From Sphingopyxis macrogoltabida (GTDB lineage Bacteria; Pseudomonadota; Alphaproteobacteria; Sphingomonadales; Sphingomonadaceae), in assembly GCF_001314325.1 (NCBI RefSeq), contig NZ_CP009429.1:744501-808500 (forward strand): 64,000 bases of DNA, in the 5' to 3' direction. Made by a program: the position numbers and the translations under genes. Numbering within the stretch: position 1 is the first letter of the stretch; the number at the start of each line of letters is the position of its first letter. The notes under the pieces are model-generated. The model was not told the origin of the DNA. It ran no database searches and worked only from the letters and a program-made list of their open reading frames with translations. Of the stretch, positions 41,877-64,000 are shown in pieces.

Positions 41877-41885
41877 TGTCATCCC

Positions 41886-42432: not shown

Positions 42433-42711
42433 TCAGAAGTTTCCCCGAGCAGCTTCCTGCAGGATCAGTTTGTCCAGCGTCAGGTCAGAGATCGCACGAC
42501 GAAGCCGCGCATTCTCTTTCTCCAGGTCCTTCATTCGCCGCGCCTGATCGGTCTTCAGGCCGCCATATTCCTTGCGCCACCGATAATAGGTCTGCTCGCT
42601 GACCGCGATCCGGCGACACGCTTCTGCGGTCGTCGCACCCTGCGCCAGAACAACCTCCGCTTCACGCAGCTTGCCGATAATCTCTTCCGGGCGATGCTTC
42701 TTGCTCGGCAT
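42433..42711 (-). CDS. IS3-family OrfA
   Basis: 92-residue helix-turn-helix protein, first frame of an IS3 (IS407-like) element: HRPEEIIGKLREAEVVLAQG, CRRIAVSEQTYYRWRKEYGG and a leucine-zipper-like LEKENARLRRAISDLTLDKL. It is intact, but its OrfB partner is truncated, so the element cannot move by itself. Confidence 0.9.
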   Translation of the reverse strand: MPSKKHRPEEIIGKLREAEVVLAQGATTAEACRRIAVSEQTYYRWRKEYGGLKTDQARRMKDLEKENARLRRAISDLTLDKLILQEAARGNF

Positions 42712-42784
42712 TCATAATCTCCTTCGAAATCCAAAATATCATCAATTTTGGACCACTCAGAAGGAGGCAGATCAAAGGCTGGAC

Positions 42785-42931
42785 TGTGCGCTGGTAGTTG
42801 AACGCCTCCGGCGACCGGATCGCCTTCCGGACCACCTTGCGCGATAACCGAAGATCACGGGCGATCACCTTGATCGCCTTGCCAGACGCATGCTCACGCC
42901 GAATCCGAACCACTGTCTCCACTACGAACAT
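42785..42931 (-). pseudogene. IS21-family IstA, N-terminal fragment
   Basis: About 50 residues: MFVVETVVRIRREHASGKAI, KVIARDLRLSRKVVRKAIRS. This is the helix-turn-helix start of IstA. It is cut near 42785 by the IS3 element, after which the frame continues into unrelated sequence. No IstB is present. Confidence 0.8.
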
Positions 42932-43009
42932 CCCGTTCTCGCCAACTAATCAAACCAGTCAGCCGCCTAAATCCTCGGGATGAAGGGTCCTATTGCACGC
43001 TGATCCTCA

Positions 43010-43222
43010 GCCTTGGCCGAAACGATCAATGGCCTTTACAAGGCGGAGGTGATCCACCGGCGAGGTCCGTGGCGATCCTTTGAAGCTGTCGAATATGCCA
43101 CGCTCGAATGGGTCGACTGGTTCAACAACAGGCGGCTGCTCAAGCCTATCGGAAACATCCCGCCCGCTGAAGCCGAAGAACGATATTACGCCATGCTGGA
43201 CGACATCGCCATGGCTGCGTAA
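43010..43222 (+). pseudogene. IS3-family transposase, C-terminal fragment
   Basis: About 70 residues of the end of a second IS3-type transposase: LAETINGLYKAEVIHRRGPW, EYATLEWVDWFNNRRLLKPI and IPPAEAEERYYAM. The Glu in LAETINGLYK is the third catalytic residue. Everything upstream is missing. It marks the boundary of the IS-rich region with the catabolic island. Confidence 0.85.
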
Positions 43223-43430
43223 CTTATGCCAAATGGCCTCCGGCAGTCCCGCGGCGCTTCACTTCATATTCGACGGCGTATACGACCATGCCTTCGACAA
43301 ACGATTTTAACCGGTACAACTGAGGCCGAGCCAGCAAACCCAATCATACACCGCTACGATCGCGACATCATCGATCGGAGAAAGATGCAAAAACCCCTCT
43401 TGACGGTCACGCGACCGTTACAAGTCCACG

Positions 43431-44639: not shown

Positions 44640-44849
44640 GTTTACCTAACCTTCCATGTTTCAGCCATGCCCCGCAGAAAACGTGACAAAGCGCTTCGAA
44701 CCAATAGTGGTCAACCGACGTTGCCGCTAAATTGCGCGATTTCTCCAGTGATACTAAGGTGCCGGGATGCCGATGCATCACACCTTGAAATATCCGGCTA
44801 CGACACCGGTTGAACCGGAATGCGATGAGTCATACCCATCCTATCCTAG

Positions 44850-45688
44850 GCCGTAAACTCATAAACTGACTTGCGCGGCGCGGGCGCGGTTGATTCAAGG
44901 CTTCGGGAAGGAGCTTTGGATGACGCGTCGTAGATTTGAACTGACCGATGATGAGTGGCTGGTGATCGAGCCGTTGTTGCCGAACAAGCCTCGCGGGGTT
45001 CCGCGTGTGGATGACCGGCGGGTCATCGACGGGATATTGTGGCGCTTTCGCACGGGCAGTCCTTGGGCTGATATTCCCGAGCGCTATGGCCCACATACCA
45101 CCTGCTACAACCGTTTCGTGCGCTGGCGCAAAGCCGGTGTGTGGGACCGCCTTCTCGAAGCGGTGAGCCAAGCCTTCGACGGCGAGTTGGTCATGATCGA
45201 CAGTTCTTCCATCCGGGTCCACCAGCACGGTGCGACCCTAAAAAGGGGGACCCAAATCGCTGCATGGGACGTTCCCGGGGCGGTTTGACAACCAAGATCC
45301 ATGCCCTGGTTGATGGTCGCGGCCTGCCGATCCAACTGCATCTGTCCGAAGGCCAGGCGAGCGATTGCCGTGAGGCCGAGAGGCTGCTGGCCGCCGTGCC
45401 GAACGCCACCACCTTTCTCGCCGATAAGGCTTATGACAGCGATGCCATTCGCAGTCAGATCACCGCGCAGGGTGGCTTCGCCAACATCCCAGCCAAGCGC
45501 AATCGTCGCAAAGGCTTCGCGTTCAGCAGCTTCCTGTATCGCTACCGTAATCTGGTCGAGCGTTTCTTCGGGAAACTCAAAAACGCCAGAGGCTTGGCCA
45601 CCAGATACGACAAACGAAGCGATAACTTCCTCGCTGCCATCAAGCTCTTCTGCACACGCCTATGGATCGCCGCTAATGAGTCTACGCC
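44850..45688 (+). mobile_element. IS5-family element flanked by CTAG
   Basis: 839 bp between two CTAG copies (44846-44849 and 45689-45692). The ends are inverted repeats: GGCCGTAAACTCAT on the left and GGGCGTAGACTCAT on the right. It differs in sequence from the IS5 at 37527 but uses the same kind of frameshift. It separates the enoyl-CoA hydratase from the acyl-CoA dehydrogenase downstream and alters the end of the former. Confidence 0.88.
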
Positions 45689-45692
45689 CTAG
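44920..45692 (+). CDS. IS5-family transposase, two frames joined by -1 frameshift
   Basis: Frame one: RRRFELTDDEWLVIEPLLPN, DDRRVIDGILWRFRTGSPW, DGELVMIDSSSIRVHQHGAT. At AAAAAGGGGG near 45240-45249 the reading shifts -1 and continues as MGRSRGGLTTKIHALVDGRG, FLADKAYDSDAIRSQI, and NLVERFFGKLKNARGLATRY. DDE residues are present in both parts. The stop codon is formed by the CTAG target copy. Probably active. Confidence 0.88.
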
Positions 45693-46593
45693 CATAAGAC
45701 AGTCCGGCCATTGCCACCGCCTTAGCCTTACCTAAATTAATATAACGCGTATCATAATTTAAGTCAATCACGGGCCCTAAACTGAGTTTGCGACATTCGT
45801 CAGCCCACACGGGCCGACGTTTTGCAATAAAGGCGTCTACGGCCTCAATGTGATCGACTGTGTGATGCGCCAAGGCCTGATAAGCAGCTGACAGTTCCAA
45901 AAGGGGGCCTAACTTCATGTCCTGACCTTCTCGAAGAAGCCGTTTCGCCAAACGTGTCGAATGGCCGGGGTTCGCTGCGATTCGGTCGGCGATATCCAGG
46001 GCTCGATCGAGACAGGTCTCGGGCTCCACCACCTCGGTCACCAGTCCGAATTCAAGCGCGGTTGCCGCATTAATCGCGTCCCCGGTCAATGTCATGATGC
46101 TGGCGCGCGCCATTCCTACTATGCGCGGCAGGAGCCAGGCACCACCATCTCCCGGGATAATTCCCAGTTTGACGAAACTCTCTGCGAATGCTGCAGTTTT
46201 CGAGGCTATTCGGACGTCACACATACAGGCGAGATCAAGTCCGGCGCCAATCGCCGGTCCGTTGACCGCCGCAACCACGGGAACTTCGAGTTCGTACAGG
46301 GAAAGAGGAATCTTTTGAATGCCAAGCCGATAGTAATTTCGCTGTTCATACGGATTGCCTGCAAACATTCCATGCCTGGCCGCCATGTCCTTAACATTTC
46401 CACCGGCACAAAAAGCGGATCCTGCGCCGGTCATGACGATCACTCTGACAGTATGATCTTCGGTCATTTCGCGGCAAAATTCCTCAATTTCCCTGCTATC
46501 ATCGCGCGTGGAAATGGCGTTGCGTTGCTCAGGCCTGTTGAGGGTTGCAATAGCCACCGGCCCTTCGCGAGAAACCTTTAGGAATGAGCTCAT
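45682..46593 (-). CDS. Enoyl-CoA hydratase/isomerase family protein
   Basis: 303-residue crotonase-fold enzyme. ATG at 46593 gives SSFLKVSREGPVAIATLNRP. The oxyanion-hole motifs are AGSAFCAGGNVKDMAARHGM and AVNGPAIGAGLDLACMCDVR; PGDGGAWLLPRIVGMARA carries the Gly-Asp-Gly segment near the active site. It would hydrate an enoyl-CoA made by the neighbouring acyl-CoA dehydrogenases. The last three residues (ARA) and stop come from the IS5 end. Without the IS the frame would end ARIGWV, so the change is small and activity is likely kept. Confidence 0.88.
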   Translation of the reverse strand: MSSFLKVSREGPVAIATLNRPEQRNAISTRDDSREIEEFCREMTEDHTVRVIVMTGAGSAFCAGGNVKDMAARHGMFAGNPYEQRNYYRLGIQKIPLSLYELEVPVVAAVNGPAIGAGLDLACMCDVRIASKTAAFAESFVKLGIIPGDGGAWLLPRIVGMARASIMTLTGDAINAATALEFGLVTEVVEPETCLDRALDIADRIAANPGHSTRLAKRLLREGQDMKLGPLLELSAAYQALAHHTVDHIEAVDAFIAKRRPVWADECRKLSLGPVIDLNYDTRYINLGKAKAVAMAGLSYARA

Positions 46594-50448: not shown

Positions 50449-52401
50449 ATGAAAGCCCTAGAGCCGATCTCGATCGCCGGTGTCGAAATCCCGAACAGGG
50501 TGGTGCGAACCGCTCACAGCACGCATTTTGGTAGCGGCGGAATTGTCCCCAGCCTTATAGACTATCATGTCGAACGTGCGCGTGGCGGCGTTGGTCTGAC
50601 GATTCTCGAAATCGCAGGGGTGCATCCCACCTGCCCGTCTTCGATCTGCAACTTCGACGATTCGGTAATCGAAGGGTACGAACAATTGATGCGGGCCATC
50701 CGGCCCCACGGCATGCGGGTGTTCCAGCAATTATGGCACGCGGGACATAACGGGGTCCCAATTGACGGGAGCCCCCCATGGTCTTCCTGCGATCTTCCAA
50801 GCCCGGTACTCGGGATAGTGCCCATCACGATGAGCCAGTCCCAGATCCGGGAGATGGTAGAGGCTTTCGCTGCTGCTGCGGAGCGCTGTCAGAGGGGCGG
50901 GATCGACGGGGTGGAGCTGCACGGCTCGCATGGTTACCTGCCGCAGCAATTCATGTCCGCCATGCTCAATCGGCGAGAGGACGAATATGGCGGCAGCTTC
51001 GAGAACCGGATGCGGTTCACCGTGGAAGTGCTGGCGGCAATTCGCGAGCAGGTCGGCCCCGGCTACCCCGTGGGCATTCGCCTCAGCCCCGAAATCGTCG
51101 AAGGCGGAATGACGCCCGAGGAAACAGCCCGCGCGGCCAGCTATCTCGAGGAACGGGGGCTGATCGATTTTCTCGACGTATCGATGGGCGGGTATTTCGC
51201 CTTTCCCAAGATGATCGGCGGAATGTTCGAGCCGGCGGGTTACGAGCTGGCGACCAGTGCGCCCGTGACCGCGGCGGTAAAGGTTCCACGGATCGTTACA
51301 GGCAGGTTTCGTACGCTTGAGGAGGTCAGTCAGGTCATTGCCGAGGGGACGGCGGACCTAGTCGGCATGACCCGCGCGCACATTGCCGATGCCGCGATCG
51401 TCCGCAAAACGCGCGAGGGGAGGGAGGCAGAAATCCGCCCCTGCATTGGCTGCAATCAAGGTTGCGTCGGAATGCTGCTCGGTCCGGAACGGCGTATGGG
51501 GTGCACGGTCAATCCCTATATCGGGCGGGAAGGCGAAGTGAGCGACGATCGTCTGCCGCCCGCAGATGCAAAACGAACGGTACTGGTCATAGGAGGCGGG
51601 CCGGCAGGGATGGAGGCGGCTCGGGTTTCCCGGCTGCGGGGACACAACGTCATTCTCGCCGAAGCGGCCCCCCAACTTGGCGGCCAGGTGAGGATCGCGG
51701 CGCTGGCTCCCCGGCATCAAGGGATCGGCGATTACACTCTTTGGCAGGAGGCGGAAATCTATCGCCTGGGCGTCGATGTGCGGCTCAGCACATATCTGGA
51801 TGGGGGCGATGCCGACGCTTTCGGAGCGGACCGGATCATCATTGCCACCGGTTCCAGTCCGCGGGTGGACGGGGTCCAGATGGCTATTCCCGCCCGCCCC
51901 ATGAAAGGAATCGAACATCCCGATGCAATATCATCGATCGACTTTTTTTCCGGTCGGCATAATTCCTGCCCTGCCAGTGCGATAGTGGTCGATGACGTCG
52001 GGCATTACGAGGGCATTGCGGTCGCCGAAGCGCTCATCGAGCGTGGCTCGGATGTCACTTTCGTCACCCGTCACAAGTCCTTCGCCCACCTGCTCGAATC
52101 GGCGTTGCAGCCAGAGCCGGCGCTGCAGCGTCTCAACCGCGGGAGCTTTCGCCTGCACCTGCGCTCGCACGTGGATTCGTTCAACGGGTCCGAGGCAGTC
52201 ATAAGCGATCTGAACGGCGGAGGCACAAGCACCGTCCGGGCAGATTGGGCAGTTATGGTCAGTCATAACCGGCCTGCGATCGAGCCATTTGCCGATCTTC
52301 TGGGGACCAGATCCGACATCGCGATTGTTGGGGATGCCAACAGCCCGCGCTTTCTTCTCCGCGCGATCGCCGAGGGGAACCGGGCAGGCTGTATGGCATG
52401 A
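50449..52401 (+). CDS. Old-yellow-enzyme / 2,4-dienoyl-CoA reductase-like flavoprotein
   Basis: 650-residue three-part reductase. The N-terminal TIM barrel (residues 1-330) binds FMN: NRVVRTAHSTHFG, GIDGVELHGSHGYLPQQFMS and NRREDEYGGSFENRMRF. Cys332, 335, 339 and 352 form the C-x2-C-x3-C-x12-C 4Fe-4S site. The C-terminal part is a pyridine-nucleotide/FAD module (TVLVIGGGPAGMEAARVSRL). Such enzymes reduce conjugated C=C bonds with NAD(P)H. Tyr in the HGSHGYLPQQF motif matches the proton donor of dienoyl-CoA reductases. First gene of the operon. It could act on a ring enone or on an unsaturated acyl-CoA; the sequence does not decide. Confidence 0.9.
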   Translation: MKALEPISIAGVEIPNRVVRTAHSTHFGSGGIVPSLIDYHVERARGGVGLTILEIAGVHPTCPSSICNFDDSVIEGYEQLMRAIRPHGMRVFQQLWHAGHNGVPIDGSPPWSSCDLPSPVLGIVPITMSQSQIREMVEAFAAAAERCQRGGIDGVELHGSHGYLPQQFMSAMLNRREDEYGGSFENRMRFTVEVLAAIREQVGPGYPVGIRLSPEIVEGGMTPEETARAASYLEERGLIDFLDVSMGGYFAFPKMIGGMFEPAGYELATSAPVTAAVKVPRIVTGRFRTLEEVSQVIAEGTADLVGMTRAHIADAAIVRKTREGREAEIRPCIGCNQGCVGMLLGPERRMGCTVNPYIGREGEVSDDRLPPADAKRTVLVIGGGPAGMEAARVSRLRGHNVILAEAAPQLGGQVRIAALAPRHQGIGDYTLWQEAEIYRLGVDVRLSTYLDGGDADAFGADRIIIATGSSPRVDGVQMAIPARPMKGIEHPDAISSIDFFSGRHNSCPASAIVVDDVGHYEGIAVAEALIERGSDVTFVTRHKSFAHLLESALQPEPALQRLNRGSFRLHLRSHVDSFNGSEAVISDLNGGGTSTVRADWAVMVSHNRPAIEPFADLLGTRSDIAIVGDANSPRFLLRAIAEGNRAGCMA

Positions 52402-52466: not shown

Positions 52467-53711
52467 ATGACTTCTACGGTACAAGATGCGGATCCCGCCC
52501 AGTTGGATTTTGCCAATCCGCAGGTGATGGAGTGTCCCTATCCCATCTACGAGAGCTTGCGTGAAAAAGCGCCGGTTTACTTCGCGGAGAAGTTGGGATT
52601 CTGGCTCATTACCCGCTACGACGATTGCCTGAATGCCATCCGCGATCCGCAAGTATTTTCGAGCAAGATGGGTTTTCGGCCCGGCTCGGTTCCCGATGAG
52701 GTAATGCGGATTTACAACGAAGAAGGCTTTGGGGATCTTCCCGATACCTTGGTCAGCAACGATCCGCCATCGCACACGCGTTATCGCAAGCTGGTCGACC
52801 GCGCTTTTACCGCCGGTCGCGTGCGTCAGATGGAAGATTACATGGTGGTGGTCGTCAGGGAATTGATCGACGCCTTTATCGAGAAGGGTCGCCTCTCGGT
52901 CATGCAGGACTTCGCTGTCCCCGTTCCCATGTATGTGATTGCGGACCAGCTGGGCGTGCCGCGCAGCCACCGGGACAGGTTCAAGGAATGGTCGGATTCG
53001 GCGGTTGCCCCGCTCGGCCTGCTTTTGTCTGACGAGAGAAAAATCGAATGCGCCAAAAGTGCAGTCGAAATGCAACATTACTTCGTTGAGGTCTTTGCCG
53101 ATCGCCGGGCAAATCCGCGCGACGACATGATTTCGGATCTGGTCACCAAGGAAATCGACGGAGCTCCGTTGAGCATCCCGGAACTCCTGTCGATCCTCAA
53201 TCAGCTTCTCGTCGCCGGCAATGAGACCACGACCAGCGCAATCGCTGCGTCCATAGTGCGCCTGGCCAACGAGCCCGAACTGGTCGAACTCCTCGCCAAA
53301 GAACCGGGCAAATGCGACAATTTCGCAGAAGAAATTCTGCGTCACGAGTCTCCCGTCCAGGGACTGTTCCGGATGACGACTGCGGATGTCGAGGTCGCCG
53401 GCGTTACCATTCCCAAAGGCAGCCTTGTAAACCTTCGCTATGGCTCGGCGAACCGCGACGAGCGAAAGTATGAATGCCCCGAAGTATTCAACGTGGCTCG
53501 CGCGAACGCGTCATCCCATCTAGCATTCGGGGCCGGCATCCACCACTGCATCGGCGCTCAGCTGGCGCGTCGCGAAATCGCGATCGCCGCGCGCGAACTG
53601 ACGGCCCGGCTGAAGGACATCCGCCTGGTCGAGGCGGACAAGATTTCGCATGCGCCGAGCGTGATCCTGCGGGCTCTCAATGAATTCGAGATCGAATTCT
53701 CGAAGCGGTGA
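52467..53711 (+). CDS. Cytochrome P450
   Basis: 414-residue soluble bacterial P450. The I-helix oxygen-binding motif is LLVAGNETTTSAIAA, the ExxR is in NFAEEILRHESPV, and the haem-binding loop is FGAGIHHCIGAQLAR with Cys361. All signatures are intact. It would hydroxylate a hydrophobic substrate with electrons from a ferredoxin and reductase, neither of which is encoded in the window. It sits between two flavin enzymes in the operon, 65 nt after the first. Confidence 0.95.
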   Translation: MTSTVQDADPAQLDFANPQVMECPYPIYESLREKAPVYFAEKLGFWLITRYDDCLNAIRDPQVFSSKMGFRPGSVPDEVMRIYNEEGFGDLPDTLVSNDPPSHTRYRKLVDRAFTAGRVRQMEDYMVVVVRELIDAFIEKGRLSVMQDFAVPVPMYVIADQLGVPRSHRDRFKEWSDSAVAPLGLLLSDERKIECAKSAVEMQHYFVEVFADRRANPRDDMISDLVTKEIDGAPLSIPELLSILNQLLVAGNETTTSAIAASIVRLANEPELVELLAKEPGKCDNFAEEILRHESPVQGLFRMTTADVEVAGVTIPKGSLVNLRYGSANRDERKYECPEVFNVARANASSHLAFGAGIHHCIGAQLARREIAIAARELTARLKDIRLVEADKISHAPSVILRALNEFEIEFSKR

Positions 53712-53731
53712 GATCCCAGGTGAGAACAGAC

Positions 53732-55159
53732 ATGACCTACGACTATGATGTAATCGTGATTGGCGGCGGAGGGGCCGGGATGGCAGCCGCCATCACGGCT
53801 TGTGATTCCGGCGCGCGCGTGGCGCTTCTGGAAGCCGCAAACCAGCTTGGCGGCTCGACGGCATTGTCGGGCGGTGTGGTTTATGGTGCCCCGACCAGCA
53901 TCCAGCGGGCTGCCGGCATCGACAGCGACACAGTCGATGCAATGTTCGAATATTACATGACCTTGAACCAGCACAAGGTGGAACCGTCGATCGTTCGGCG
54001 GCTCTGCGAGTTGTCCGGACCGGCGATCGAATGGCTCATCTCGATGGGGGTCGAGTTCGATCCGGCTGAACTGTATGCCTCCGGTGTGGAAAGCGTTCCG
54101 CGAGGCCACAAGACAACGGGCAACGGCGCCGCCTTGTCAGAGGTGCTGGACCGCGAGGTCAACCGCCGCAATATCGACGTTTCGCGGGGCTGCCGCGTGA
54201 CCGCGCTGCACACAGACGAACACGGTTGTGTGCGCGGCGTCGTACTGGATGGCGAGACCGTAAGCGCGAATAGCGTGATAATCGCCACAGGAGGCTTCGG
54301 TCACAACCGGCTCCTCCTGAACCGTCACTATCCCGAAGCCGCCCAGCACGGCGATTGGACTTGGGCCATAACCGCCAAGACCTGCACTGGCGATGGCCTG
54401 TTGATGGGCCAGGAAGTCGGCGCGGATATTGCCGGTCACAATCGCGGGTTGCTGCTGACCACGCCCGGTTTCTATCGCGATCTCGAAGTCTTCGTCCCGG
54501 GCTGGCTGGTCTATGTCAACCGCGAGGGGCGCCGCTTCATCAACGAAACCACCGAATATGCGGTCATGGCCGGGGTCGTGAAGGACCAAATTGGCGGGTC
54601 TATCTTTGCTATCTTCGACGAGAATGCACGCGCCACTGCCGTGCCAGAGCCTCGCTATGCCGCAGCCCACAAGGCGGGGATCATCACGCTGAACTGGGTG
54701 ACCGACAAGATCGACGAACAGATCGCCAAGGGCAAGGTCATCAAGGCGCAGACCTTGGCCGAACTCGCCGACCTGGTCGGTATCGAAAGCGGCGCGTTGG
54801 AAACCACGATCGCCCGTTACAATTCGGATTGCGAGCAAGGGGTGGACAGCAAATTCCACAAGGACGGCGCACTGATGAAGCCTGTCGCCCAACCGCCCTT
54901 CTATGCCGCCGAAATCCGCCCTGCGATTGTCTGTCTGACCTCGACCGGCTTGCGGGTGGACAGGGACATGCACGTTCTCGACTGCGCAGACCGCCCCATC
55001 GGCGGGCTCTTTTCTGCCGGAGAAGTGTCGGGCGGTGTTTTGGGTGACAGATATATAGGCGGCGGAAATTCGATCGCCAACGCGATCGTCTTCGGACGTG
55101 TCGCAGGTGAGCAGGCGGCGCGTGAAGCGGGCCTTGGAACCGACAGGGAGCAAGCATGA
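53732..55159 (+). CDS. FAD-dependent oxidoreductase (ketosteroid dehydrogenase / fumarate reductase family)
   Basis: 475-residue flavoprotein. The N-terminal dinucleotide fold is DYDVIVIGGGGAGMAAAITA, followed by GGSTALSGGVVYGAP. GHKTTGNGAALSEVLDREV, YVNREGRRFINETTEYAVMA and the end LFSAGEVSGGVLGDRYIGGG are typical of the 3-ketosteroid delta-dehydrogenase / fumarate reductase flavoprotein family. It probably introduces or reduces a ring C=C next to a ketone. ATG at 53732 preferred over the GTG at 53708 because of the AGGTGAG spacing. Its stop overlaps the SDR start. Confidence 0.88.
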   Translation: MTYDYDVIVIGGGGAGMAAAITACDSGARVALLEAANQLGGSTALSGGVVYGAPTSIQRAAGIDSDTVDAMFEYYMTLNQHKVEPSIVRRLCELSGPAIEWLISMGVEFDPAELYASGVESVPRGHKTTGNGAALSEVLDREVNRRNIDVSRGCRVTALHTDEHGCVRGVVLDGETVSANSVIIATGGFGHNRLLLNRHYPEAAQHGDWTWAITAKTCTGDGLLMGQEVGADIAGHNRGLLLTTPGFYRDLEVFVPGWLVYVNREGRRFINETTEYAVMAGVVKDQIGGSIFAIFDENARATAVPEPRYAAAHKAGIITLNWVTDKIDEQIAKGKVIKAQTLAELADLVGIESGALETTIARYNSDCEQGVDSKFHKDGALMKPVAQPPFYAAEIRPAIVCLTSTGLRVDRDMHVLDCADRPIGGLFSAGEVSGGVLGDRYIGGGNSIANAIVFGRVAGEQAAREAGLGTDREQA

Positions 55160-55920
55160 TGGCAAACGAATTTTCGCTAGACGGCAAAGTGGCGCTCGTC
55201 ACCGGCGCGGCACGGGGCATTGGCCTCGAAATCGCTTGCCGGCTTGCGCAAAGCGGCGCGCAGGTGGTTTTCACCGATGTCGAACCAGAACTCGGTCCCG
55301 AGGCCGCCGCTTCGGTGCAGGGTGGCTCATACCGCAATCTCGACGTCACGGCGCAATCCCAATGGGAAGACACGATCCAGGAAATTCGTGACCAGCATGG
55401 TCGCCTGGACATTCTCGTCAATAATGCCGGGATCAGCCCGGCCGGGAACATTGAACAAAGCGATCTGGCTTTGTGGCGGCGCGTTCAGACCATCAATGTC
55501 GAGAGCGTGTTTCTCGGGTGCCGAACCGCGCTGCCGCTGATGCGCCAATCTGGCGAAGGCGGTTCGATTATCAATCTCAGCTCGATTCAGGCCCTGCGCC
55601 CCGCAGCCGAACTGGCTGCCTATTCCGCATCGAAGGCCGCCGTGCGGGCTTTGACCAAATCGGTGGCACTCCACGCTGCCCGTGACCGGATACGTTGCAA
55701 TTCGGTGCACCCAGGCGGGGTGCATACCCGAATGCTTGACGATTTCGCCGCGCTTACCGGCGATGCGGAAGCGGCGCTGCTCAAGCTAAATGCCGCAAAC
55801 CCCTTGGGGCGGGTGGGTTTGCCGCTCGATATTGCGAATGGCGTTCTCTATCTCGCCTCAGACCTCTCGGCTTGGGTCACGGGCCTCGAACTTGTGATCG
55901 ATGGAGGTTCGACCCTGTGA
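55156..55920 (+). CDS. Short-chain dehydrogenase/reductase
   Basis: 254-residue classical SDR. The NAD(P) motif TGAARGIG is at 16-23, NNAG at 89-92, and the catalytic Asn114, Ser142/143, Tyr156 and Lys160 are in place (YSASK). Asp41 after the second strand suggests NAD preference. It probably oxidises a hydroxyl formed by the P450 or hydratase to a ketone. It overlaps both neighbours by 4 nt, so it is translated with them. Confidence 0.93.
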   Translation: MMANEFSLDGKVALVTGAARGIGLEIACRLAQSGAQVVFTDVEPELGPEAAASVQGGSYRNLDVTAQSQWEDTIQEIRDQHGRLDILVNNAGISPAGNIEQSDLALWRRVQTINVESVFLGCRTALPLMRQSGEGGSIINLSSIQALRPAAELAAYSASKAAVRALTKSVALHAARDRIRCNSVHPGGVHTRMLDDFAALTGDAEAALLKLNAANPLGRVGLPLDIANGVLYLASDLSAWVTGLELVIDGGSTL

Positions 55921-57563
55921 GGGAAGGTGTCCTCGATCCTTCAGGCTGGCGGTTGTGGCGCAGCCAGGACGAGATGAAAGATCTGGTCAAAACGGGCGTG
56001 TGGGAAAACCGCACCACTTGGCAGGATGCCGTGGCCTTTGCTCAGTCAGACCCCGACGGCGTCGCTATCTGGTTCGACGACGGTTCCGAGTTGACTTACC
56101 GTCAGGGATGCGAGGAGGCGATTACGCTTGCTGCCTCGCTGAAGGAACTGAGCCTGCGCAAGGGTGACGTGGTCAGCGCCACCCTGCCGAACTGGCGGGA
56201 GATGGCGATCATCAACCTAGCTTGCTGCGCCCTCGGCCTGGTCATCAACCCGATCATTCCGATTTACCGCGATCGCGAGGTGGGCTTCATTCTGAAGGAC
56301 GCTGGCTCGCGCCTGCTGTTCACGCCGGGCGGTACGGGGAGCTTCGACTATCTCGCCATGGCGGCGCGCATTGCGGCAAAGACCCCTTCGCTGGAGCACA
56401 TCGTGACGGTGAGGCCGGGCGAAAGCGAGAGCGCAACCCTGAGCTACGCTGAGCTTATCGAGAAAGGGAATCCCGAACAATTTGAAGCTGCGGAGGTCGA
56501 TCCCAGTCACGTCAAGCTCTTGATGTATACCTCCGGCACCACGGGAATTCCCAAAGGGGTTCTGCACAGCCATAATACGCTGAGGCGTTCTGCGGCCAAT
56601 TCCCGCGAGGCGCGAGGAGTGGGGGAAGGCGACATCACCCTGATGGCGTCGCCGGTTACTCATGTGACGGGCTATTCGTCGCTCGAGCAGGCATTCAATT
56701 CCCCGATCAAGACTGCTCTCATGTCACGCTGGGATAAGGCAGCGGCCATTGATTTCATCAATCGCACAGGGGCCACCCTGACGGTTGGCGCAACCCCTTT
56801 TCTCAAGGAGCTTCTGGACGAAGCGGAAGCGCGCGGCACCGGCCTGCCGAGCCTGCGTCAATTTGCCTGCGGTGGCGCGGAGGTGTCTCCCCAGCTGATC
56901 GTCCGGGCTCATGAGACGCTTGATAATTGTCGCTGCTTCCGGGTCTTTGGAAGCACTGAGGTGCCGCTCGTCACACAAGGATACCTGCGGCCCGAACATG
57001 CAAATCTGGCCGCCGAAACCGACGGCCGGATCTACAATTACGACGTGCGCATCGTCGATGCAGACGGCCGCGATGTCGCACCTGGCGAAGAGGGAGAAAT
57101 CCTCGCGCGGGGGCCGTCGATGTTCCTTGGGTACACCGATTGGCAGGAAACGATGAAGGCGGTCGACGGGAATGGCTATTTTCATACCGGCGATCTCGTT
57201 CGCGCTGGGCCAGAAGGCAGCATTGTCGTCAGCGGGCGGTTGAAAGATCTCATCATCAGGGGTGGCGAAAACCTCAGCGCGAAAGAGATCGAGGATGTCC
57301 TGAGTCTTCATCCTGCCATTCAGGAGGCTGCGGTGGTCTCGATGCCTGATCCAAGGCTGGGAGAAGGTGTCTGTGCCTTTCTCGTTCTGCAGGCCGATTG
57401 TCCGGCGCCAAGCGTTGGCGAACTCAGCCAGTTTGTGCGGCAACAAGGCCTTGCCCCTCAAAAAGCACCAGCCAGAATCGAAGTAATCAGCAAATTTCCA
57501 ATGACTGCCTCTGGCAAGATTCAGAAAAATGTTCTGCGTGAGAGAATTCGTGAAATTATATAA
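55917..57563 (+). CDS. AMP-forming acyl-CoA ligase
   Basis: 548-residue adenylating enzyme that would activate a carboxylate as its CoA thioester. Core motifs are LLMYTSGTTGIPKGVLHSHN, FRVFGSTEVPLVTQG, GYFHTGDLVRAGPEGSIVVS, GRLKDLIIRGGENLSAKEIE and the C-terminal catalytic lysine in TASGKIQKNVLRE. GTG at 55917 overlaps the SDR stop (GTGA). It resembles the cyclohexanecarboxylate/long-chain/steroid-acid ligase branch. The substrate acid is probably the transported compound or an intermediate feeding the acyl-CoA dehydrogenases. Confidence 0.92.
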   Translation: MREGVLDPSGWRLWRSQDEMKDLVKTGVWENRTTWQDAVAFAQSDPDGVAIWFDDGSELTYRQGCEEAITLAASLKELSLRKGDVVSATLPNWREMAIINLACCALGLVINPIIPIYRDREVGFILKDAGSRLLFTPGGTGSFDYLAMAARIAAKTPSLEHIVTVRPGESESATLSYAELIEKGNPEQFEAAEVDPSHVKLLMYTSGTTGIPKGVLHSHNTLRRSAANSREARGVGEGDITLMASPVTHVTGYSSLEQAFNSPIKTALMSRWDKAAAIDFINRTGATLTVGATPFLKELLDEAEARGTGLPSLRQFACGGAEVSPQLIVRAHETLDNCRCFRVFGSTEVPLVTQGYLRPEHANLAAETDGRIYNYDVRIVDADGRDVAPGEEGEILARGPSMFLGYTDWQETMKAVDGNGYFHTGDLVRAGPEGSIVVSGRLKDLIIRGGENLSAKEIEDVLSLHPAIQEAAVVSMPDPRLGEGVCAFLVLQADCPAPSVGELSQFVRQQGLAPQKAPARIEVISKFPMTASGKIQKNVLRERIREII

Positions 57564-57582
57564 ATATTTGGGGAGAGAACTT

Positions 57583-59961
57583 ATGAACAATAATCACAAC
57601 TTTTTGTCGGGTTGCGCAATTGCTGCTCTTGCCTGGAGTGGATTTTCTGCGCCGGCCTTTGCCCAGAACGCCAGTGAACAGGTTGCGGAGACTGCGGATC
57701 CTGCCGAGAGCGATGAGATCGTAGTTACTGCCCGTCGGCGTGACGAAGCGCTCCAGGATGTCCCGATTACCATCGCATCCATTGGTGGTGACGAACTCGA
57801 GAAGTCGCAGATCACCAAACCGGAAGCACTTGCGGCGCGCGTGCCCACATTGAATATCGCGGTGGGCGGTTCGGGTTCGGGCGGCCAGATGAGTCTGCGT
57901 GGGATCGGATCCTCGAATGTGTCTGCGGCGTTCGACAGTGCAGTTGCGCTCGATTTCGACGGCATTGTGGTCAGTTCCATGCGCCTGGTCCAGTCTGGGT
58001 TTTTCGACGTCGCCCAGATCGACATTCTGAAGGGACCGCAGTCGTTGTATTTCGGCAAGAGCGCTACCGCTGGCGTGGTTTCGATCCGGTCTGCCGGTCC
58101 TACGTCGTCACTCGAAGCATCATTGCGCGGGTCCTACGAATTCGAAGAGAAGGGCTATACTGTCGAAGGATACGTTTCCGGACCGATCAGCGACACTCTG
58201 GGTTTCCGCATCGCCGGCCGCTTTAACAAGATTGACGAGCTCTATTTCAATGCGGCACCAAATGTGGCCCACCCCTATCGCGGGGAGAAGAACATCAATC
58301 TGCGCGGCACGCTCGAATGGGAGCCGAGTGCAGACTTCACTCTCAATCTCAAAGCGAACTATGTCGGTCACAATAACAACGGCGAGATCCGGCACACACA
58401 GATTTTCTGCGGAGCGAACGGCTTAGCCGACCCCCTGCATTTGCTGGGCGGGGCTGTGGTCATTCCAGCTGGCTACGATTGCAACGCTTTCGACAATGTT
58501 TTCTGGTTGCCGGATTCCGCAGTTCCCTTGGGCGCAATGGCACCTCCGGGCATGGATAATAACGGAGGTGTTCCGTTCAACGATACGGATACGTACCTGA
58601 TCCGCGCAAAAGCAGACATAGCGCTGCAGGATAATTTGTCGCTGGCGCTGGTGACCGGATATTTCGACTTCAAATCGCGCGGTCAGGATTTCTATGGTTA
58701 TGGCGGCGTGATGGGGGTCGGTACCGATCTTAACCTCAACCGGAACCAGCAGTTCACGCAGGAAATTCGTTTCGCCAGCGACAATGAAGGACCGTTCAAC
58801 TGGCTGGTCGGCGGTTTCTACGAGCGCCGCGACATCCTGTTCGAAGCAGCGCAGAATGCAGTCAACATTTCATTTCTGGCGGCCGACCCCATTACGGGTT
58901 CGACATTTGACTGGCGCCGTCAGCATTACACCAAGACTGACGCATACTCGGTCTTCGGCAACGTTTTGCTGGAACCCACAGAAAACCTCGAGCTGTCGGC
59001 TGGCCTGCGTTACACCAAGGAAAAGAAGATGAACCGGATCGAGGTTCCTTACGTTCACCGTATATTATCCGGCCCGCCGTTCAACTTCATCGCAAGCGGT
59101 TTCGAATCGCCGCAGATCCGCTTCCAGGACGATAATTTCTCACCAGAAGTATCGGTGAAATACAAGATTTCCGACGATGCCCAGGTCTATGCTTCCTACA
59201 AGAAGGGCTTCAAGTCAGGCGGAATCGACAATAGCGCCTTGCCCTCAAGCGGGTTGAGTGCCATCGTTGCTTCGGGCGACTATTCCTCGCTCATCTTCGC
59301 TTCCGAGACGGCCGAAGGTTTTGAGGTCGGATTGAAAAGTTCACTGGCTCAGAACAAAGTGCGATTGAACATGTCGCTGTTCAACTACACCTTCTCGGGC
59401 TTGCAGATACAAAGCTTCGATCCGGTCGCCATCCAATATAGCACAAGCAATGCTGGCCAACTGCGATCACGCGGCGGAGACCTTGAGCTCCGCTGGAAAG
59501 CGCCGACGGATGGCCTGACCCTTAGTGCGGCAGTCGCTTATACTGATGCCGAATTTACCGAGACCTTCATCAGCAATGCCGGAATCGACCTCAAAGGCAG
59601 GGCTGCACCAAGAGCGCCCAAGTGGTCAGGCAATCTGTCTTTCGACTGGGAGATCCCGATCTCTAATAGCCTCGACTTCAGTGTGTTCGGTTTGGCTAAC
59701 TACAGCGGTTCCTATTTTGCCGATGCAACGACCTTGAATGACTATGTTCAGAAAGACTACGTCACATTGGATGCCAATGTTACGATCAGTTCGTCGAATG
59801 ATCGTTGGCGCATTTCCTTGTTAGGAAATAACCTGACCGACAAGATCTATGTCAATCAGGCATCTGGTCGACCGTTCCGGCAAGCCGGAGTGGGTGACGA
59901 CTTGGCACTCACACAGAACAGGGGCCGGCAGGTCTTCGTAGAGTTCGCTGTTAAGTACTGA
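57583..59961 (+). CDS. TonB-dependent outer-membrane receptor
   Basis: 792-residue receptor inside the catabolic operon. ATG at 57583 follows GGGGAGAG and opens a signal peptide (CAIAALAWSGFSAPAFAQ). The TonB box is EIVVTARRRDEALQDVPITI, the plug has QMSLRGIGSSNVSAAFDSAV and AQIDILKGPQSLYFGKSATA, and the barrel ends RGRQVFVEFAVKY. It probably imports the operon's substrate. It shares the general type but not close sequence with the receptor at 32150-35086. Confidence 0.93.
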   Translation: MNNNHNFLSGCAIAALAWSGFSAPAFAQNASEQVAETADPAESDEIVVTARRRDEALQDVPITIASIGGDELEKSQITKPEALAARVPTLNIAVGGSGSGGQMSLRGIGSSNVSAAFDSAVALDFDGIVVSSMRLVQSGFFDVAQIDILKGPQSLYFGKSATAGVVSIRSAGPTSSLEASLRGSYEFEEKGYTVEGYVSGPISDTLGFRIAGRFNKIDELYFNAAPNVAHPYRGEKNINLRGTLEWEPSADFTLNLKANYVGHNNNGEIRHTQIFCGANGLADPLHLLGGAVVIPAGYDCNAFDNVFWLPDSAVPLGAMAPPGMDNNGGVPFNDTDTYLIRAKADIALQDNLSLALVTGYFDFKSRGQDFYGYGGVMGVGTDLNLNRNQQFTQEIRFASDNEGPFNWLVGGFYERRDILFEAAQNAVNISFLAADPITGSTFDWRRQHYTKTDAYSVFGNVLLEPTENLELSAGLRYTKEKKMNRIEVPYVHRILSGPPFNFIASGFESPQIRFQDDNFSPEVSVKYKISDDAQVYASYKKGFKSGGIDNSALPSSGLSAIVASGDYSSLIFASETAEGFEVGLKSSLAQNKVRLNMSLFNYTFSGLQIQSFDPVAIQYSTSNAGQLRSRGGDLELRWKAPTDGLTLSAAVAYTDAEFTETFISNAGIDLKGRAAPRAPKWSGNLSFDWEIPISNSLDFSVFGLANYSGSYFADATTLNDYVQKDYVTLDANVTISSSNDRWRISLLGNNLTDKIYVNQASGRPFRQAGVGDDLALTQNRGRQVFVEFAVKY

Positions 59962-60004
59962 GTCTCTCAAGTTTGATGTCATTGTGGATAGAGGAGTCTC
60001 GATC

Positions 60005-61540
60005 ATGATAGAAACGCTGACCGGAACAAATCGATCAAGAGGATTATCCTATCAGGAACTCCTCAAGACTGATTCGAAAAGCGTACCTGCGTCGCTGAAG
60101 AAGGAATCGGCGCTGGATCATACTCCTCTATCTATCGATGTTGAGCGATATTACAGTCGCGAATTCCACGATCTGGAAGTCGAAAAACTCTGGCGGCGCG
60201 TGTGGCAATTGGCTTGTCACGAAGACGAAATTCCCGAGGTTGGGGATGCATTGGTCTATGACATCGCGTCGCTTTCTTTTGTTGTGGTGAGGACGGGAGA
60301 AGATGAATTCTCCGCCTATCCCAACGCCTGCCGCCACAGGGGGCGCCGCCTGCTGGATTGCCCCAAAAAGGGGCTCACCAATTTCCGATGCCCTTTCCAC
60401 GGTTGGTCGTGGAAACTTGATGGGACACTCAAAGAGGTTCCATGCCACTGGGATTTCCCAAACGTCACCGAAGAAACGCACTCACTTCCCAAGGTGAAAA
60501 CCGGCCGCTGGGGTGGGTTCGTGTTCATCAACCCAGACCCGGACGCGCAGCCCCTCAAGGAGTTCCTGGGGGACATTGACGAACACTGGACAACCCTTCC
60601 CTTCGAACGTCGCTACAAGGCCGTGCACGTCGCCAAAAAGCTGCCCTGCAATTGGAAAATTGCACAGGAAGCCTTCATGGAATCCTATCACGTGATCGCG
60701 ACGCATCCTACTCTGCTGTATGAGATGGGGGATGCTAACTCGCAGTACGACGCTTTCGGGGTGCTTTCACGCGCCATCTCCGCGCAAGGCATAGCCAGTC
60801 CGCATATTGAGGCCGAACTTGCGGGCGAGCCGTTTGACGATACCACGCCCTTTACCGTCTACCGTCACCCCATAACTGGTGATCTCTATGAGCGCCTCAG
60901 TGAGGGCCGCATACGTTTGACAAAGGCGGATGGCCGGGTCGGGGTGTTCAATGCACAGGCAGAGCCGCTGGAGGGCGAGTTGAAAAATGCGGACCTCCAC
61001 ATTTGCAACTGGTTCGCGGGCAGGTTGACCCCCGATATGGAAGCGGCAAGCCATGCTTTCGGCGCCTTGCCGGTGGTCGAAGCCCGTGCGAGTCGCGCTG
61101 CTGCCAAGCGGGAGCAATTGCGACCGCTGATGGGGGACGAGATCGACCGGGTGTGTGACGCCGAATTGGTCGATTCAATATATTACAGCATCTTTCCGAA
61201 CATTAGTCCGTGGGGGTGCTACAATCCAATCTTCTACAGGTTCCGACCAGATGGCGATAATCCGGAACAATGCATCCACGAAATCATGTTCATGCTTCCG
61301 GTTCCCAAAGGACAAGACCGACCGAAGCCGGCTTCGATCCATTGGCTCGGCCTAAATGATGACTACATGGAGGCTCCCGAACTCGGTTCGTTGGCGAAGG
61401 TGTTCAATCAGGATAATTTGAACCTGCCGGCAGTACAGCTGGGGTTGCGCAATGTTCCTGGGGGCAAGATCATGCTGGCGGAATATCAGGAAGCCAAGAT
61501 CCGGCATTTTCATGCCACTTTGGACGATTGGCTCGATTAA
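60005..61540 (+). CDS. Rieske non-haem iron oxygenase, alpha subunit
   Basis: 511-residue oxygenase. The Rieske 2Fe-2S ligands are Cys109, His111, Cys129 and His132 (ACRHRGRRLLDC, FRCPFHGWSWKLDG). The mononuclear iron ligands are His229 and His234 in FMESYHVIATHP. Position 226, three before the first His and usually Asp, is Glu, as reported for carnitine-type Rieske monooxygenases. No beta subunit or reductase is nearby. It probably hydroxylates a non-aromatic or bulky substrate. ATG at 60005 chosen for the GAGGAG before it. Confidence 0.92.
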   Translation: MIETLTGTNRSRGLSYQELLKTDSKSVPASLKKESALDHTPLSIDVERYYSREFHDLEVEKLWRRVWQLACHEDEIPEVGDALVYDIASLSFVVVRTGEDEFSAYPNACRHRGRRLLDCPKKGLTNFRCPFHGWSWKLDGTLKEVPCHWDFPNVTEETHSLPKVKTGRWGGFVFINPDPDAQPLKEFLGDIDEHWTTLPFERRYKAVHVAKKLPCNWKIAQEAFMESYHVIATHPTLLYEMGDANSQYDAFGVLSRAISAQGIASPHIEAELAGEPFDDTTPFTVYRHPITGDLYERLSEGRIRLTKADGRVGVFNAQAEPLEGELKNADLHICNWFAGRLTPDMEAASHAFGALPVVEARASRAAAKREQLRPLMGDEIDRVCDAELVDSIYYSIFPNISPWGCYNPIFYRFRPDGDNPEQCIHEIMFMLPVPKGQDRPKPASIHWLGLNDDYMEAPELGSLAKVFNQDNLNLPAVQLGLRNVPGGKIMLAEYQEAKIRHFHATLDDWLD

Positions 61541-61595: not shown

Positions 61596-62588
61596 ATGAA
61601 CAAATCAGATTCCTCCCATGCCTTCACGCCTGAGTTAGCGAGATCGATTTATCGCAAAGCGTATCTCATCAACCGCACGGACCAACGATTCCGGGCGATG
61701 CTGACGAATGGTGAATTGGCAGTTGCATACTACCCTGTTCGTGGACAGGAGGTCACCGCAGCCGCTGCGCTGTCTGCATTGCAGCCCGAAGACTATCTGG
61801 TGACAACCTATCGCGGCCTTCACGATTCCCTGGCCAAGGGGATTCCATCACGCTTGCTATGGGCCGAGTTTGCCGGAAAACGCACCGGGACCTGCAAGGG
61901 CAAGGGCGGACCGATGCATATCACTTATCCCCCGACCGGGGTAATGGTGACGACAGGAATCGTCGGGTCGGGCATTCCGATCGCCAATGGCCTGGCAATG
62001 GCCGCGCAAATTAGAGGCGAGAACCGGGTAGCGGTGGCGAGTTTCGGTGACGGGGCCAGCAATATCGGCGCGTTCCACGAAGCGCTCAACATGGCGTCGG
62101 TTTGGAAACTGCCGGTTGTTTTCCTCTGCCAGAACAACCAATACGCCGAGCATACGACGCTCGCGGCAGGTACTTCAGTGACGAGCATCGCCGAAAGAGC
62201 TGCGGGTTACGAAATGCCCGGCGTGTCGTGCGACGGTCTCGATCCCGAAATGATGTATCAAACAATGGCCGCAGCGGTTGCTCGTGCCCGTGCTGGAGAC
62301 GGCCCTACCCTGGTCGAAGCACATACGTACCGCTTGCAGGGTCATATCTTCGGCGCTGATTACAGTTATATTCCCAAGGAAGAGCTCAAGGCTGCCGAAG
62401 AGCGGGCCAGCATGATGCGCCTTCGCCAAAGGATCAGCGAGAGACAGGTCACCGATTCCGATCTCGCGCAGATCGAACAGGAGGTGGACGCCGAAATCGA
62501 AGATGCCGTGGCGTTCGCACTGAAAAGTGATCCGCCGGATCCGGACGAGATCAGGTTCGACATCTACGAAACGGAGCAGGCAGCATGA
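61596..62588 (+). CDS. Thiamine-diphosphate E1 alpha subunit (2-oxoacid/acetoin dehydrogenase type)
   Basis: 330-residue E1 alpha of the pyruvate/acetoin/branched-chain dehydrogenase family. The thiamine-diphosphate motif runs from GDGASNIGAFHEALNMA (GDG at 151-153) to CQNNQY (NN at 180-181). YRGLHDSLAKGIPSRLLWAE, GKGGPMHITYPPTGVMVTTG and ADYSYIPKEELK are typical of the acetoin-type branch. With the beta subunit it would decarboxylate or cleave an alpha-oxo compound and pass the acyl group to a lipoyl arm. Start ATG at 61596; earlier Met codons are inside the oxygenase gene. Confidence 0.92.
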   Translation: MNKSDSSHAFTPELARSIYRKAYLINRTDQRFRAMLTNGELAVAYYPVRGQEVTAAAALSALQPEDYLVTTYRGLHDSLAKGIPSRLLWAEFAGKRTGTCKGKGGPMHITYPPTGVMVTTGIVGSGIPIANGLAMAAQIRGENRVAVASFGDGASNIGAFHEALNMASVWKLPVVFLCQNNQYAEHTTLAAGTSVTSIAERAAGYEMPGVSCDGLDPEMMYQTMAAAVARARAGDGPTLVEAHTYRLQGHIFGADYSYIPKEELKAAEERASMMRLRQRISERQVTDSDLAQIEQEVDAEIEDAVAFALKSDPPDPDEIRFDIYETEQAA

Positions 62589-63586
62589 GCGGAAAAACTA
62601 TCAGCTTCGGCCAGGCTCTCAATGCTGCGCTCGATGATGCGATGGCGGACGACGGAAATGTCATGATTCTTGGCGAGGATGTTGCCGACGAGCAGGGCGG
62701 CGGCGTGTTCAAGGTCAGCAAGGGCCTTTCGAGCAAATACGGAACCAGTCGCGTTCGTTCGACTCCCATTTCTGAACAGGCCATCCTGGGCGCGGCAGTG
62801 GGTGCGGCGATTGTTGGCATGCGTCCGGTGGCCGAGATCATGCTGATGAATTTCATCACGGTCGCGATGGACCAGCTGGTCAATCACGCCGCGAAGCTGC
62901 GCTTCATGTCGGGCGGCCAGACCAATGTGCCGCTGGTTGTCCGAACGACGACCGGGGCTGGTGTGGGTTTCGGAGGTCAGCATTCCGATATGCTGGAAGC
63001 CTGGTTTGCTCATGTTCCCGGCCTAAAGATTGCGACCGCCTCGAACCCGGCGGATGCCTATGGCCTGCTTCGCTCTGCGATTGACGATGAAGATCCCGTT
63101 ATCCTGATCGAGAATATCACACACTACGGAATGACAGGCCCCGCCCCAGAGGCTGGTTATCGCGTGCCGCTGGGCAAGGCAGCGATTGCGCGCGAGGGAA
63201 GGGACATCACTCTTGTTACTTACGGACGCGGTGTAAGCGATAGCCTGAAGGCGGCCAGCCTGTTGGCTGATGAAGGTATCGCCGCTGAAGTCATTGACTT
63301 GCGCACCATAGCCCCGTGGGATGAACAGGCGGTTTTCGCTTCTGTCGCCAAGACAAAGCGCGCTGTAATCGTCCACGAAGCAGTTCGTCCTTTCGGGGCC
63401 GGAGCCGAGATTTCCGCTCGCATTCACGAAGAACTGTTCTCTGATCTACTAGCGCCAGTTCAGCGGGTCGCGTCCTATCCCTCTCCGGTTCCCTTTGCGA
63501 AGCCACTGGAGACAGCATTCCTCTATAGTGTCGATGACATTGTTCGTGCGGCACACGCAACAACAGATAAGGCAATTAACTCATGA
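62585..63586 (+). CDS. Thiamine-diphosphate E1 beta subunit
   Basis: 333-residue E1 beta partner. Hallmarks are MILGEDVADEQGGGVFKVSK, TPISEQAILGAAVGAAIVGM, ALDDAMADDGNVM at the start, the metal/monovalent loop GAGVGFGGQHSDMLEAWFAH, and AEVIDLRTIAPWDEQAVF. It overlaps the alpha gene and the lipoyl-domain gene by 4 nt each, so the three proteins are made together. Confidence 0.94.
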   Translation: MSGKTISFGQALNAALDDAMADDGNVMILGEDVADEQGGGVFKVSKGLSSKYGTSRVRSTPISEQAILGAAVGAAIVGMRPVAEIMLMNFITVAMDQLVNHAAKLRFMSGGQTNVPLVVRTTTGAGVGFGGQHSDMLEAWFAHVPGLKIATASNPADAYGLLRSAIDDEDPVILIENITHYGMTGPAPEAGYRVPLGKAAIAREGRDITLVTYGRGVSDSLKAASLLADEGIAAEVIDLRTIAPWDEQAVFASVAKTKRAVIVHEAVRPFGAGAEISARIHEELFSDLLAPVQRVASYPSPVPFAKPLETAFLYSVDDIVRAAHATTDKAINS

Positions 63587-63813
63587 CTATAGAAGTTCGC
63601 ATACCAAAGCTTGGGATGAGCATGGAAACTGCAACCCTTTTGGAATGGTGCGTTGAAGATGGTGCGCAGGTCAGTGCTGGCATGCCACTTTATACGGTCG
63701 AGACAGACAAATCGACCATTGAGGTGGAAGCGCCGGCCGACGGACAGATTGAGATAATCGGCTTGGTCGATACTGAATATGAGGTCGGCACTCTCATTGC
63801 TCGTATTTCCTGA
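63583..63813 (+). CDS. Free-standing lipoyl-domain protein
   Basis: 76-residue protein that consists of a single biotinyl/lipoyl hairpin domain. The lipoyl lysine is Lys43 in VETDKSTIEVEAPADG, and the domain starts IEVRIPKLGMSMETATLLEW as in E2 proteins. There is no peripheral-subunit-binding domain and no acyltransferase catalytic domain; the frame ends right after the lipoyl fold with a true stop. It would serve as a mobile acyl/electron carrier for the adjacent E1. Its acyl acceptor enzyme is unknown. Confidence 0.92.
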   Translation: MTIEVRIPKLGMSMETATLLEWCVEDGAQVSAGMPLYTVETDKSTIEVEAPADGQIEIIGLVDTEYEVGTLIARIS

Positions 63814-63843: not shown

Positions 63844-64000
63844 ATGCGTGACGAGGTATTTGTTGTCGACCAGGCCGGGAAGGCTCGCATTGTCGCCGGG
63901 AAGAACCGCACCAATGGACAGATTGTCTTTCCATATCCAGATGGAGAGGGCGAGGGGGCATACGAACGGATCGAGCTTCCGCAAAGCGGGACTTTGTGGA
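63844..64000 (+). CDS. DUF35-like OB-fold protein (partial, runs off the window)
   Basis: First 52 residues of a protein starting at ATG 63844: DEVFVVDQAGKARIVAGKN, then FPYPDGEGEGAYERIELPQS ahead of GTLW. The GTLW strand preceded by LPQS resembles the start of the OB fold in DUF35 proteins, which assist thiolases or hydratases in steroid-type beta-oxidation. The zinc-ribbon cysteines of many DUF35 proteins are absent in the visible part. The family call rests on a short segment. Confidence 0.5.
   Translation, partial: MRDEVFVVDQAGKARIVAGKNRTNGQIVFPYPDGEGEGAYERIELPQSGTLW

Follow-up and report, generated by a model that had tools for sequence, protein, structure and literature searches.

A stretch of 64,000 nucleotides from Sphingopyxis macrogoltabida (contig NZ_CP009429.1, positions 744,501 to 808,500; hereafter the window, G000:C1:744501-808500 in a 5.75 Mb genome of 3 contigs) carries near its end a triplet of genes encoding the E1-alpha and E1-beta subunits of a thiamine diphosphate (ThDP)-dependent dehydrogenase and a free-standing lipoyl carrier protein. 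The triplet is a conserved module, beyond chance, with relatives in Alpha-, Beta- and Gammaproteobacteria and in Actinomycetota. We lean towards a reading in which E1 and the lipoyl carrier, as part of a catabolic cluster, form a core-less system that would borrow its E3 and, in this genome, its E2 acyltransferase as well.

The three genes are intact and are joined by 4-nt ATGA overlaps, one between E1-alpha and E1-beta and one between E1-beta and the lipoyl gene. A first-pass annotation, made from the letters of the window, had described complete E1 subunits followed by a 76-residue protein consisting of a lipoyl domain, and the coordinates, overlaps and Pfam domains agree with it. Compared with the 2-oxoacid dehydrogenase complexes, the subunits fall in the E1-alpha/beta families and retain the catalytic residues, whereas of the E2 that stands beside E1 in those complexes, with its lipoyl, E3-binding and acyltransferase domains, only the lipoyl domain is represented here. 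E1-alpha H250 and E1-beta E64 and H133 were invariant in all 85 aligned E1 pairs (window included); we take their mechanistic roles from human pyruvate dehydrogenase (PDH), and H133 is presumably the equivalent of the residue held to matter for reductive acylation. E1-alpha scored below the NCBIfam equivalog cut-offs for PDH E1-alpha (TIGR03182, 270 vs 394 bits; TIGR03181, 226 vs 411 bits), and E1-beta scored above the subfamily cut-off of NF006667 (345 vs 321 bits). In the lipoyl protein, PF00364 matched residues 4-75 with 58 bits and covered profile positions 2-73 of 73, that is, a complete domain. No other family was matched in the Pfam scan at E<=0.001, and GCV_H (PF01597, glycine cleavage H-protein) was likewise unmatched at this level. 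The best NCBIfam match of the protein was the lipoyl part of the acetoin dehydrogenase E2 (NF011457; 65 bits against a cut-off of 307).

Relatives were collected with an E1-alpha profile built from an alignment of 16 proteins and scanned against one genome per species. The best 80 of at least 596 matching stretches (576 confirmed) and six plasmid loci gave 86 related loci, some of them from incomplete metagenome-assembled genomes, in which the starts of open reading frames (ORFs) are guesses. Eighty-three of these, with an E1-beta gene and at least 1.3 kb of room, were usable (L058, L094 and L113 dropped; window not counted). A lipoyl-only ORF was found within 1.2 kb 3' of E1-beta in 64 of the 83 loci, at a spacing of no more than 150 bp in 56, 228 bp in one and approximately 720 bp in seven of the Acidimicrobiia type. 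The lysine K43 was invariant in all 66 lipoyl-only sequences (window and L113 included), which were 76 residues long in 52 cases, 77 in 8, 78 in 3, and longer with uncertain starts in 3. The carrier of the window scored higher with each of the other 65 than with the lipoyl domains of its own genome, a comparison that used 6 of the 12 PF00364 places, 4 of which matched. Relative to the two syntenic loci L051 and L052, E1 gave dN/dS values of about 0.05-0.06 and the lipoyl protein one of about 0.10 (dS near saturation). A truncation limited to this strain, on which the first-pass claim would have foundered, is thus ruled out by the same small gene in 64 of the 83 loci, the invariant lysine and the low dN/dS. 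In three E1 loci from 139 matched plasmid records (Rhizobium, Terrarubrum and RHA1; 41-43% identity), E1-beta is followed by an E2 gene of 422-433 aa, as judged by annotation and length. This arrangement suggests a derived origin of the lipoyl-only state; the RHA1 locus also carries lpdA, an E3 gene, nearby. In a Sphingobium/Novosphingobium subclade (L044, L111, L098, L116, L124) the lipoyl gene closest to E1-alpha is found 4-7 kb upstream of it, and in RAC03 this upstream gene adjoins a Gfo/Idh/MocA oxidoreductase.

The absence of an E2 catalytic domain beside E1 was confirmed in the sequence past base 64000, where the first-pass annotation had proposed to look for E2 and E3 genes. The lipoyl gene is followed there by genes for an OB-fold protein, a thiolase-like protein and a TetR regulator, and then by transposase-like ORFs (the last named by eye). 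This gene content, together with a genome-wide PF00198 search, ruled out an E2/E3 pair directly downstream. The search returned three E2 catalytic domains. They lie at a distance from the cluster, in reading frames 432, 443 and 515 aa long; an E3 gene adjoins one of these three housekeeping E2s on its 3' side. A stand-alone E2 elsewhere in the genome was also ruled out, as a profile of the split E2s described below (A2) matched the same three long-frame E2s and no others. No E3 was detected by similarity to a partial E3 or by the active-site motif, either in the cluster of the window or in the 86 related loci.

In a minority of relatives the missing acyltransferase is a separate gene. A split E2 was defined as a match of at least 320 bits in a frame of less than 400 aa, a threshold again chosen after the score lists were seen. 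In 14 of 84 loci (13 of 83, plus L113) the gene that follows the lipoyl gene encodes a lone E2 catalytic domain, a state that needs at least six changes on a tree of the 85 E1 pairs built by a quick method. Over the matched stretch, four of these 14 and the stand-alone E2 of L095 showed PF00198 in Pfam, with no lipoyl or E3-binding domain. Across whole genomes, 17 of the 67 tested contained a split E2 and 50 did not; it lies at another genomic place in G291, G299, G303, G305 and G307. At least three genomes scored as lacking it have another short E2 ORF (G242, G188, and G325 via its locus L106). In G242, a closely related sphingomonad whose E1-alpha is 62% identical to that of the window, a one-strand row consists of an E2 catalytic domain, acyl-CoA dehydrogenase, OB-fold protein, thiolase, E1-alpha, E1-beta and lipoyl protein; this short E2 is of another type than the split E2, and no subunit-binding domain was found in the short E2s that were scanned. 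A Zhongshania contig carries a very similar cluster with E1, lipoyl protein and E2 catalytic domain, whose proteins match those of the window with 599 bits for the Old Yellow Enzyme (OYE), 417 for the P450, 600 for the 3-ketosteroid dehydrogenase (KSTD)-like protein, 537 for the ligase and 525 for the thiolase. In two further loci, L043 (on a TomTYG74 plasmid) and L106, the E1 pair is accompanied by genes for Rieske proteins and acyl-CoA dehydrogenases, and the stretch examined gave no lipoyl match. A short E2 ORF lies there about 6.7 kb upstream of the E1-beta end, on the opposite strand. In Paraburkholderia PGU19 and Diaphorobacter HDW4B (L042 and L150, the latter outside the counts) an MMPL transporter gene and a YCF48-related gene precede the row E1-alpha, E1-beta, lipoyl protein, E2 catalytic domain, and DUF1302 and DUF1329 genes lie nearby.

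We infer lipoylation, the substrate class, the route of acyl transfer and the borrowing of E2 and E3 from these arrangements. The ThDP-dependent E1 would cleave or decarboxylate an alpha-oxo acid, alpha-hydroxyketone or alpha-diketone supplied by the oxygenases and dehydrogenases of the cluster; an oxo or hydroxy side chain, as supposed in the first-pass annotation, may be the substrate. E1 would then reductively acylate the lipoate on Lys43 of the free carrier, which would diffuse, like GcvH, to an E2 acyltransferase to yield acyl-CoA and would be reoxidised by the housekeeping E3. The E2 step would be performed by the separate catalytic-domain protein encoded beside the carrier in some relatives, and here one of the three housekeeping E2s would most likely stand in. 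Of the two acceptors considered in the first-pass annotation, borrowed E2/E3 is the better supported, because no E3 was detected in the 86 loci and the split E2 of 14 of the 84 relatives is missing here; acyl hand-over to a pathway enzyme is conceivable, with the downstream OB-fold/thiolase-like pair as the candidate acceptor.

Several observations weigh against this reading. Nineteen of the 83 loci lack a lipoyl gene in the 1.2 kb after E1-beta; in five of the 19 a match lies 4-7 kb upstream of E1-alpha. In 25 of 30 sphingomonad genomes there are just three E2s, all in frames of at least 406 aa, an inventory that fits a general borrowing of E2 in the clade or a dispensable E2 step equally. 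Finally, the thiolase type encoded downstream is present in 43 of the 50 genomes without a split E2 and in 5 of the 17 with one (Fisher p 2.7e-5, phylogeny uncorrected), an anticorrelation that would also fit a replacement of E2.

The OB-fold gene starts 30 bp after the lipoyl stop codon and overlaps the thiolase-like gene by 4 nt, and the pair adjoins the triplet both in the window and in the syntenic L051 and L052. Ltp2-ChsH2 and Sal-Shy aldolases likewise combine a thiolase fold with a DUF35/OB partner, and Ltp2 and Sal carry YDHF and YDCY, respectively, at the motif site (PMC12329534, in the part available). The window protein has QDTES at this site, without the catalytic Tyr of these aldolases, and its OB-fold partner has no Zn-ribbon cysteines in its sequence or in the alignment to 6esq_E. 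Thiolases and SCP2 thiolases are recognized by a Cys and two catalytic His; the window protein keeps Cys78 (NGCATGG) and has QDTES for HDCF and GEP for GHP, so that the His positions are Q280 and E330. The same pattern, with minor changes, occurs in 12 other loci from sphingomonads, Acidimicrobiales, Nocardia and Halopseudomonas, that is, in Pseudomonadota and Actinomycetota (one of the 12 proteins is partial, with the Cys outside its sequence), while four other aligned thiolases have the usual HDCF/GHP. An OB-fold protein without Zn-ribbon cysteines and a QDTES/GEP thiolase together represent a thiolase subfamily linked to the E1 module. At thresholds of 360 bits for E1-alpha and 370 bits for the thiolase, both chosen after the score lists were seen, 33 of 296 Sphingomonadales genomes have a close E1. 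The thiolase type is present in 30 of these 33, against 19 of the 263 others (Fisher p 7e-25, phylogeny uncorrected), and lies within 20 kb of E1 in 23 of the 30.

That this pair takes the acyl group from the carrier and passes it to CoA or a carbon nucleophile, replacing E2, is what its position, its kept Cys and shared motif pattern, its tracking of E1 and its anticorrelation with the split E2 would favour, but we consider it unlikely. Thiolase and split E2 occur together in five genomes (G299, G301, G302, G311 and G321; in one cluster in G301 and G302), seven genomes have neither, and G242 encodes the thiolase and a short E2 of its own in a single row of genes, which argue that the thiolase-like protein would usually catalyse a step different from that of E2. 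A role as general E2 substitute is weakened by the five genomes that carry both, and the known OB-fold/thiolase pairs are thiolases or aldolases. The bolder form of this idea, an E2-less dehydrogenase whose carrier hands its acyl group to a rewired OB-fold/thiolase enzyme, with lipoate as the acyl donor for C-S or C-C chemistry, is likewise unlikely; if true, E2-less acyl hand-over would belong to a catabolic pathway of sphingomonads and actinomycetes.

The acyl group might also never reach an acceptor. ThDP-type cleavage of a ketol side chain without an E2 has precedents in cyclohexane-1,2-dione hydrolase and in the DesAB desmolase. For DesAB, side-chain cleavage is described in PMC3735941 (in the part available). 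E1 would on this account be an acyloin or 2-oxoacid lyase or oxidase, with the acyl group hydrolysed off and lipoate carrying electrons only, until the housekeeping E3 reoxidises the carrier. The lack of an acyltransferase in the cluster of this genome agrees with such an account, but acyltransferase genes beside the carrier in 14 of 84 relatives and the invariant E1-beta H133 do not, and we regard it as rather unlikely. Decay, with the lipoyl protein as the remnant of an E2 and E1 non-functional or uncoupled here, might be suspected from the E2 gene of some relatives that is missing here, from the transposase-like ORFs around the cluster (by eye) and from a truncated end piece in G119. Lys43 and the whole domain are nevertheless present at the length shared by 52 of the 66 lipoyl-only sequences, dN/dS is low for both E1 and the lipoyl protein and the 4-nt overlaps are kept, which makes decay very improbable. 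Borrowing of E2 and E3 by a free carrier remains the reading that we prefer.

The genes of the cluster are listed in Table 1.

Table 1. Genes of the catabolic cluster and of the E1/lipoyl module, in window positions
Feature	Position	Strand	Support
Large Old-Yellow-Enzyme-type flavoprotein	50449..52401	+	TIGR03997- and BaiCD-like, below cut-offs
Cytochrome P450	52467..53711	+	PF00067
FAD dehydrogenase, flavocytochrome c / 3-ketosteroid dehydrogenase type	53708..55159	+	PF00890, 181 bits
SDR (short-chain dehydrogenase/reductase) oxidoreductase	55156..55920	+	NF005559, 241 bits (cut-off 215)
Acyl-CoA ligase (AMP-binding)	55872..57563	+	PF00501, 228 bits
TonB-dependent receptor	57529..59961	+	Named by eye; syntenic in L051, L052
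Rieske oxygenase alpha subunit, directly upstream of E1-alpha	59984..61540	+	PF00355, PF00848
E1-alpha, ThDP-dependent dehydrogenase type, 330 aa	61596..62588	+	PF00676, E=9.9e-70, 235 bits
E1-beta, 333 aa	62585..63586	+	PF02779, PF02780
Free-standing lipoyl carrier protein, 76 aa, predicted lipoyl-lysine K43	63583..63813	+	PF00364
OB-fold (ChsH2_C/DUF35-like) protein	63844..64000, to window-equivalent 64257 (L009 4344-4757)	+	PF01796, 48 bits
Thiolase-like gene	window-equivalent 64254-65399 (L009 4754-5899)	+	Thiolase domains

The order OYE, P450, KSTD-like, SDR, ligase, TonB, Rieske, E1-alpha, E1-beta, lipoyl, OB-fold, thiolase, TetR is common to the window, L051 and L052 (E1-alpha 85% and 84% identical, respectively). 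The first-pass annotation had called for a survey of such triplets beside oxygenases. In the flanks of 84 loci (window, L051 and L052 excluded; no control set), a Rieske match of at least 60 bits was found in 42 and an acyl-CoA dehydrogenase match of at least 80 bits in 44. This linkage, taken with a CoA ligase and with acyl-CoA dehydrogenases of pimC/pimD-like type, points to the catabolism of an alicyclic or isoprenoid compound as the putative role of the cluster. A steroid-type substrate is a candidate suggested by gene-family membership (KSTD-like, OYE, P450, acyl-CoA dehydrogenase pair, Ltp-like thiolase and OB fold). The nearest solved structures of the FAD dehydrogenase are flavocytochromes c, with 3-ketosteroid dehydrogenases weaker, and CYP125/CYP142 steroid hydroxylases are among many solved relatives of the P450; the breadth of the P450 and Rieske matches and an OYE score below the BaiCD cut-off weaken the steroid-type reading. 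A review states that sphingomonads break down bile-acid side chains by enzymes yet to be found (PMC8399759, in the part available); a link of that pathway to the present cluster would be conjecture.

Transposase-like ORFs flank the cluster in the window (29000-45700) and from G000:C1:810956 onward, and conjugation-like genes occur in parts of the first 25 kb (all by eye). Over the first 32 kb the GC content ranges from 0.60 to 0.67, compared with 0.56 at the window end, and the region may be mobile. G119 contains a 1.88 kb piece (C1:166225-168108, L151) that is 99.8% identical to the 3' end of the cluster, comprising the thiolase minus its first 23 residues and TetR; no E1-alpha match at E<=1e-60 was found in that genome, and the piece has the appearance of a leftover of this cluster in a congeneric genome.

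Among known systems, the PDH and branched-chain 2-oxoacid dehydrogenase complexes have the E1-alpha/beta families, catalytic residues and lipoyl domain in common with the module, but possess a multidomain E2 and an E3, both absent from the window cluster, and the window E1-alpha lies far below the PDH cut-offs. The acetoin dehydrogenase AcoABC includes the E2 whose lipoyl part is the best NCBIfam match of the carrier, and ketol-type substrates would suit the cluster; in contrast to AcoABC, the carrier here has no E2 body, and the E1 loci at 41-43% identity do have an E2 gene. By analogy, the closest working counterpart would be the glycine cleavage H-protein. GcvH is a free lipoyl carrier that shuttles between a decarboxylase and an acceptor and shares E3; its decarboxylase uses pyridoxal phosphate, as against ThDP here. 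The carrier of G242 gave a weak GCV_H match below the cut-off (20.1 vs 22.2 bits). The substrate chemistry of DesAB is ketol cleavage, and this enzyme is not known to have a lipoyl carrier. DesAB, a steroid 17,20-desmolase, is transketolase-like and cleaves the steroid side chain (PMC3735941); it is likened to the present E1 by description, not by sequence. In the steroid (estrogen) catabolism of sphingomonads, 2-oxo acid decarboxylation with CoA addition has been proposed for EdcC (PMC7793797, in the part available), which differs in belonging to the indolepyruvate ferredoxin oxidoreductase family; the word 'lipoyl' is absent from the available text of that paper, and from the other papers that were text-searched for it. 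In the open-licence PMC literature we found no description of the split module or of a missing dedicated E2 in most of the sphingomonad genomes examined. The E1, lipoyl and E2 families are known; what appears to be new is the combination of a free carrier and a free catalytic domain without an E3-binding domain or E3.

E2 is the defining core of the 2-oxoacid dehydrogenase complexes, and here the E1/lipoyl part is separate from that core in two phyla. The module resembles a classic metabolic complex that has been taken apart, and it probably serves the breakdown of complex organic compounds. It is a natural test of the need for core assembly and swinging-arm channelling, and offers a tractable candidate enzyme for C-C cleavage in clusters that combine Rieske oxygenases and P450s with acyl-CoA dehydrogenases.

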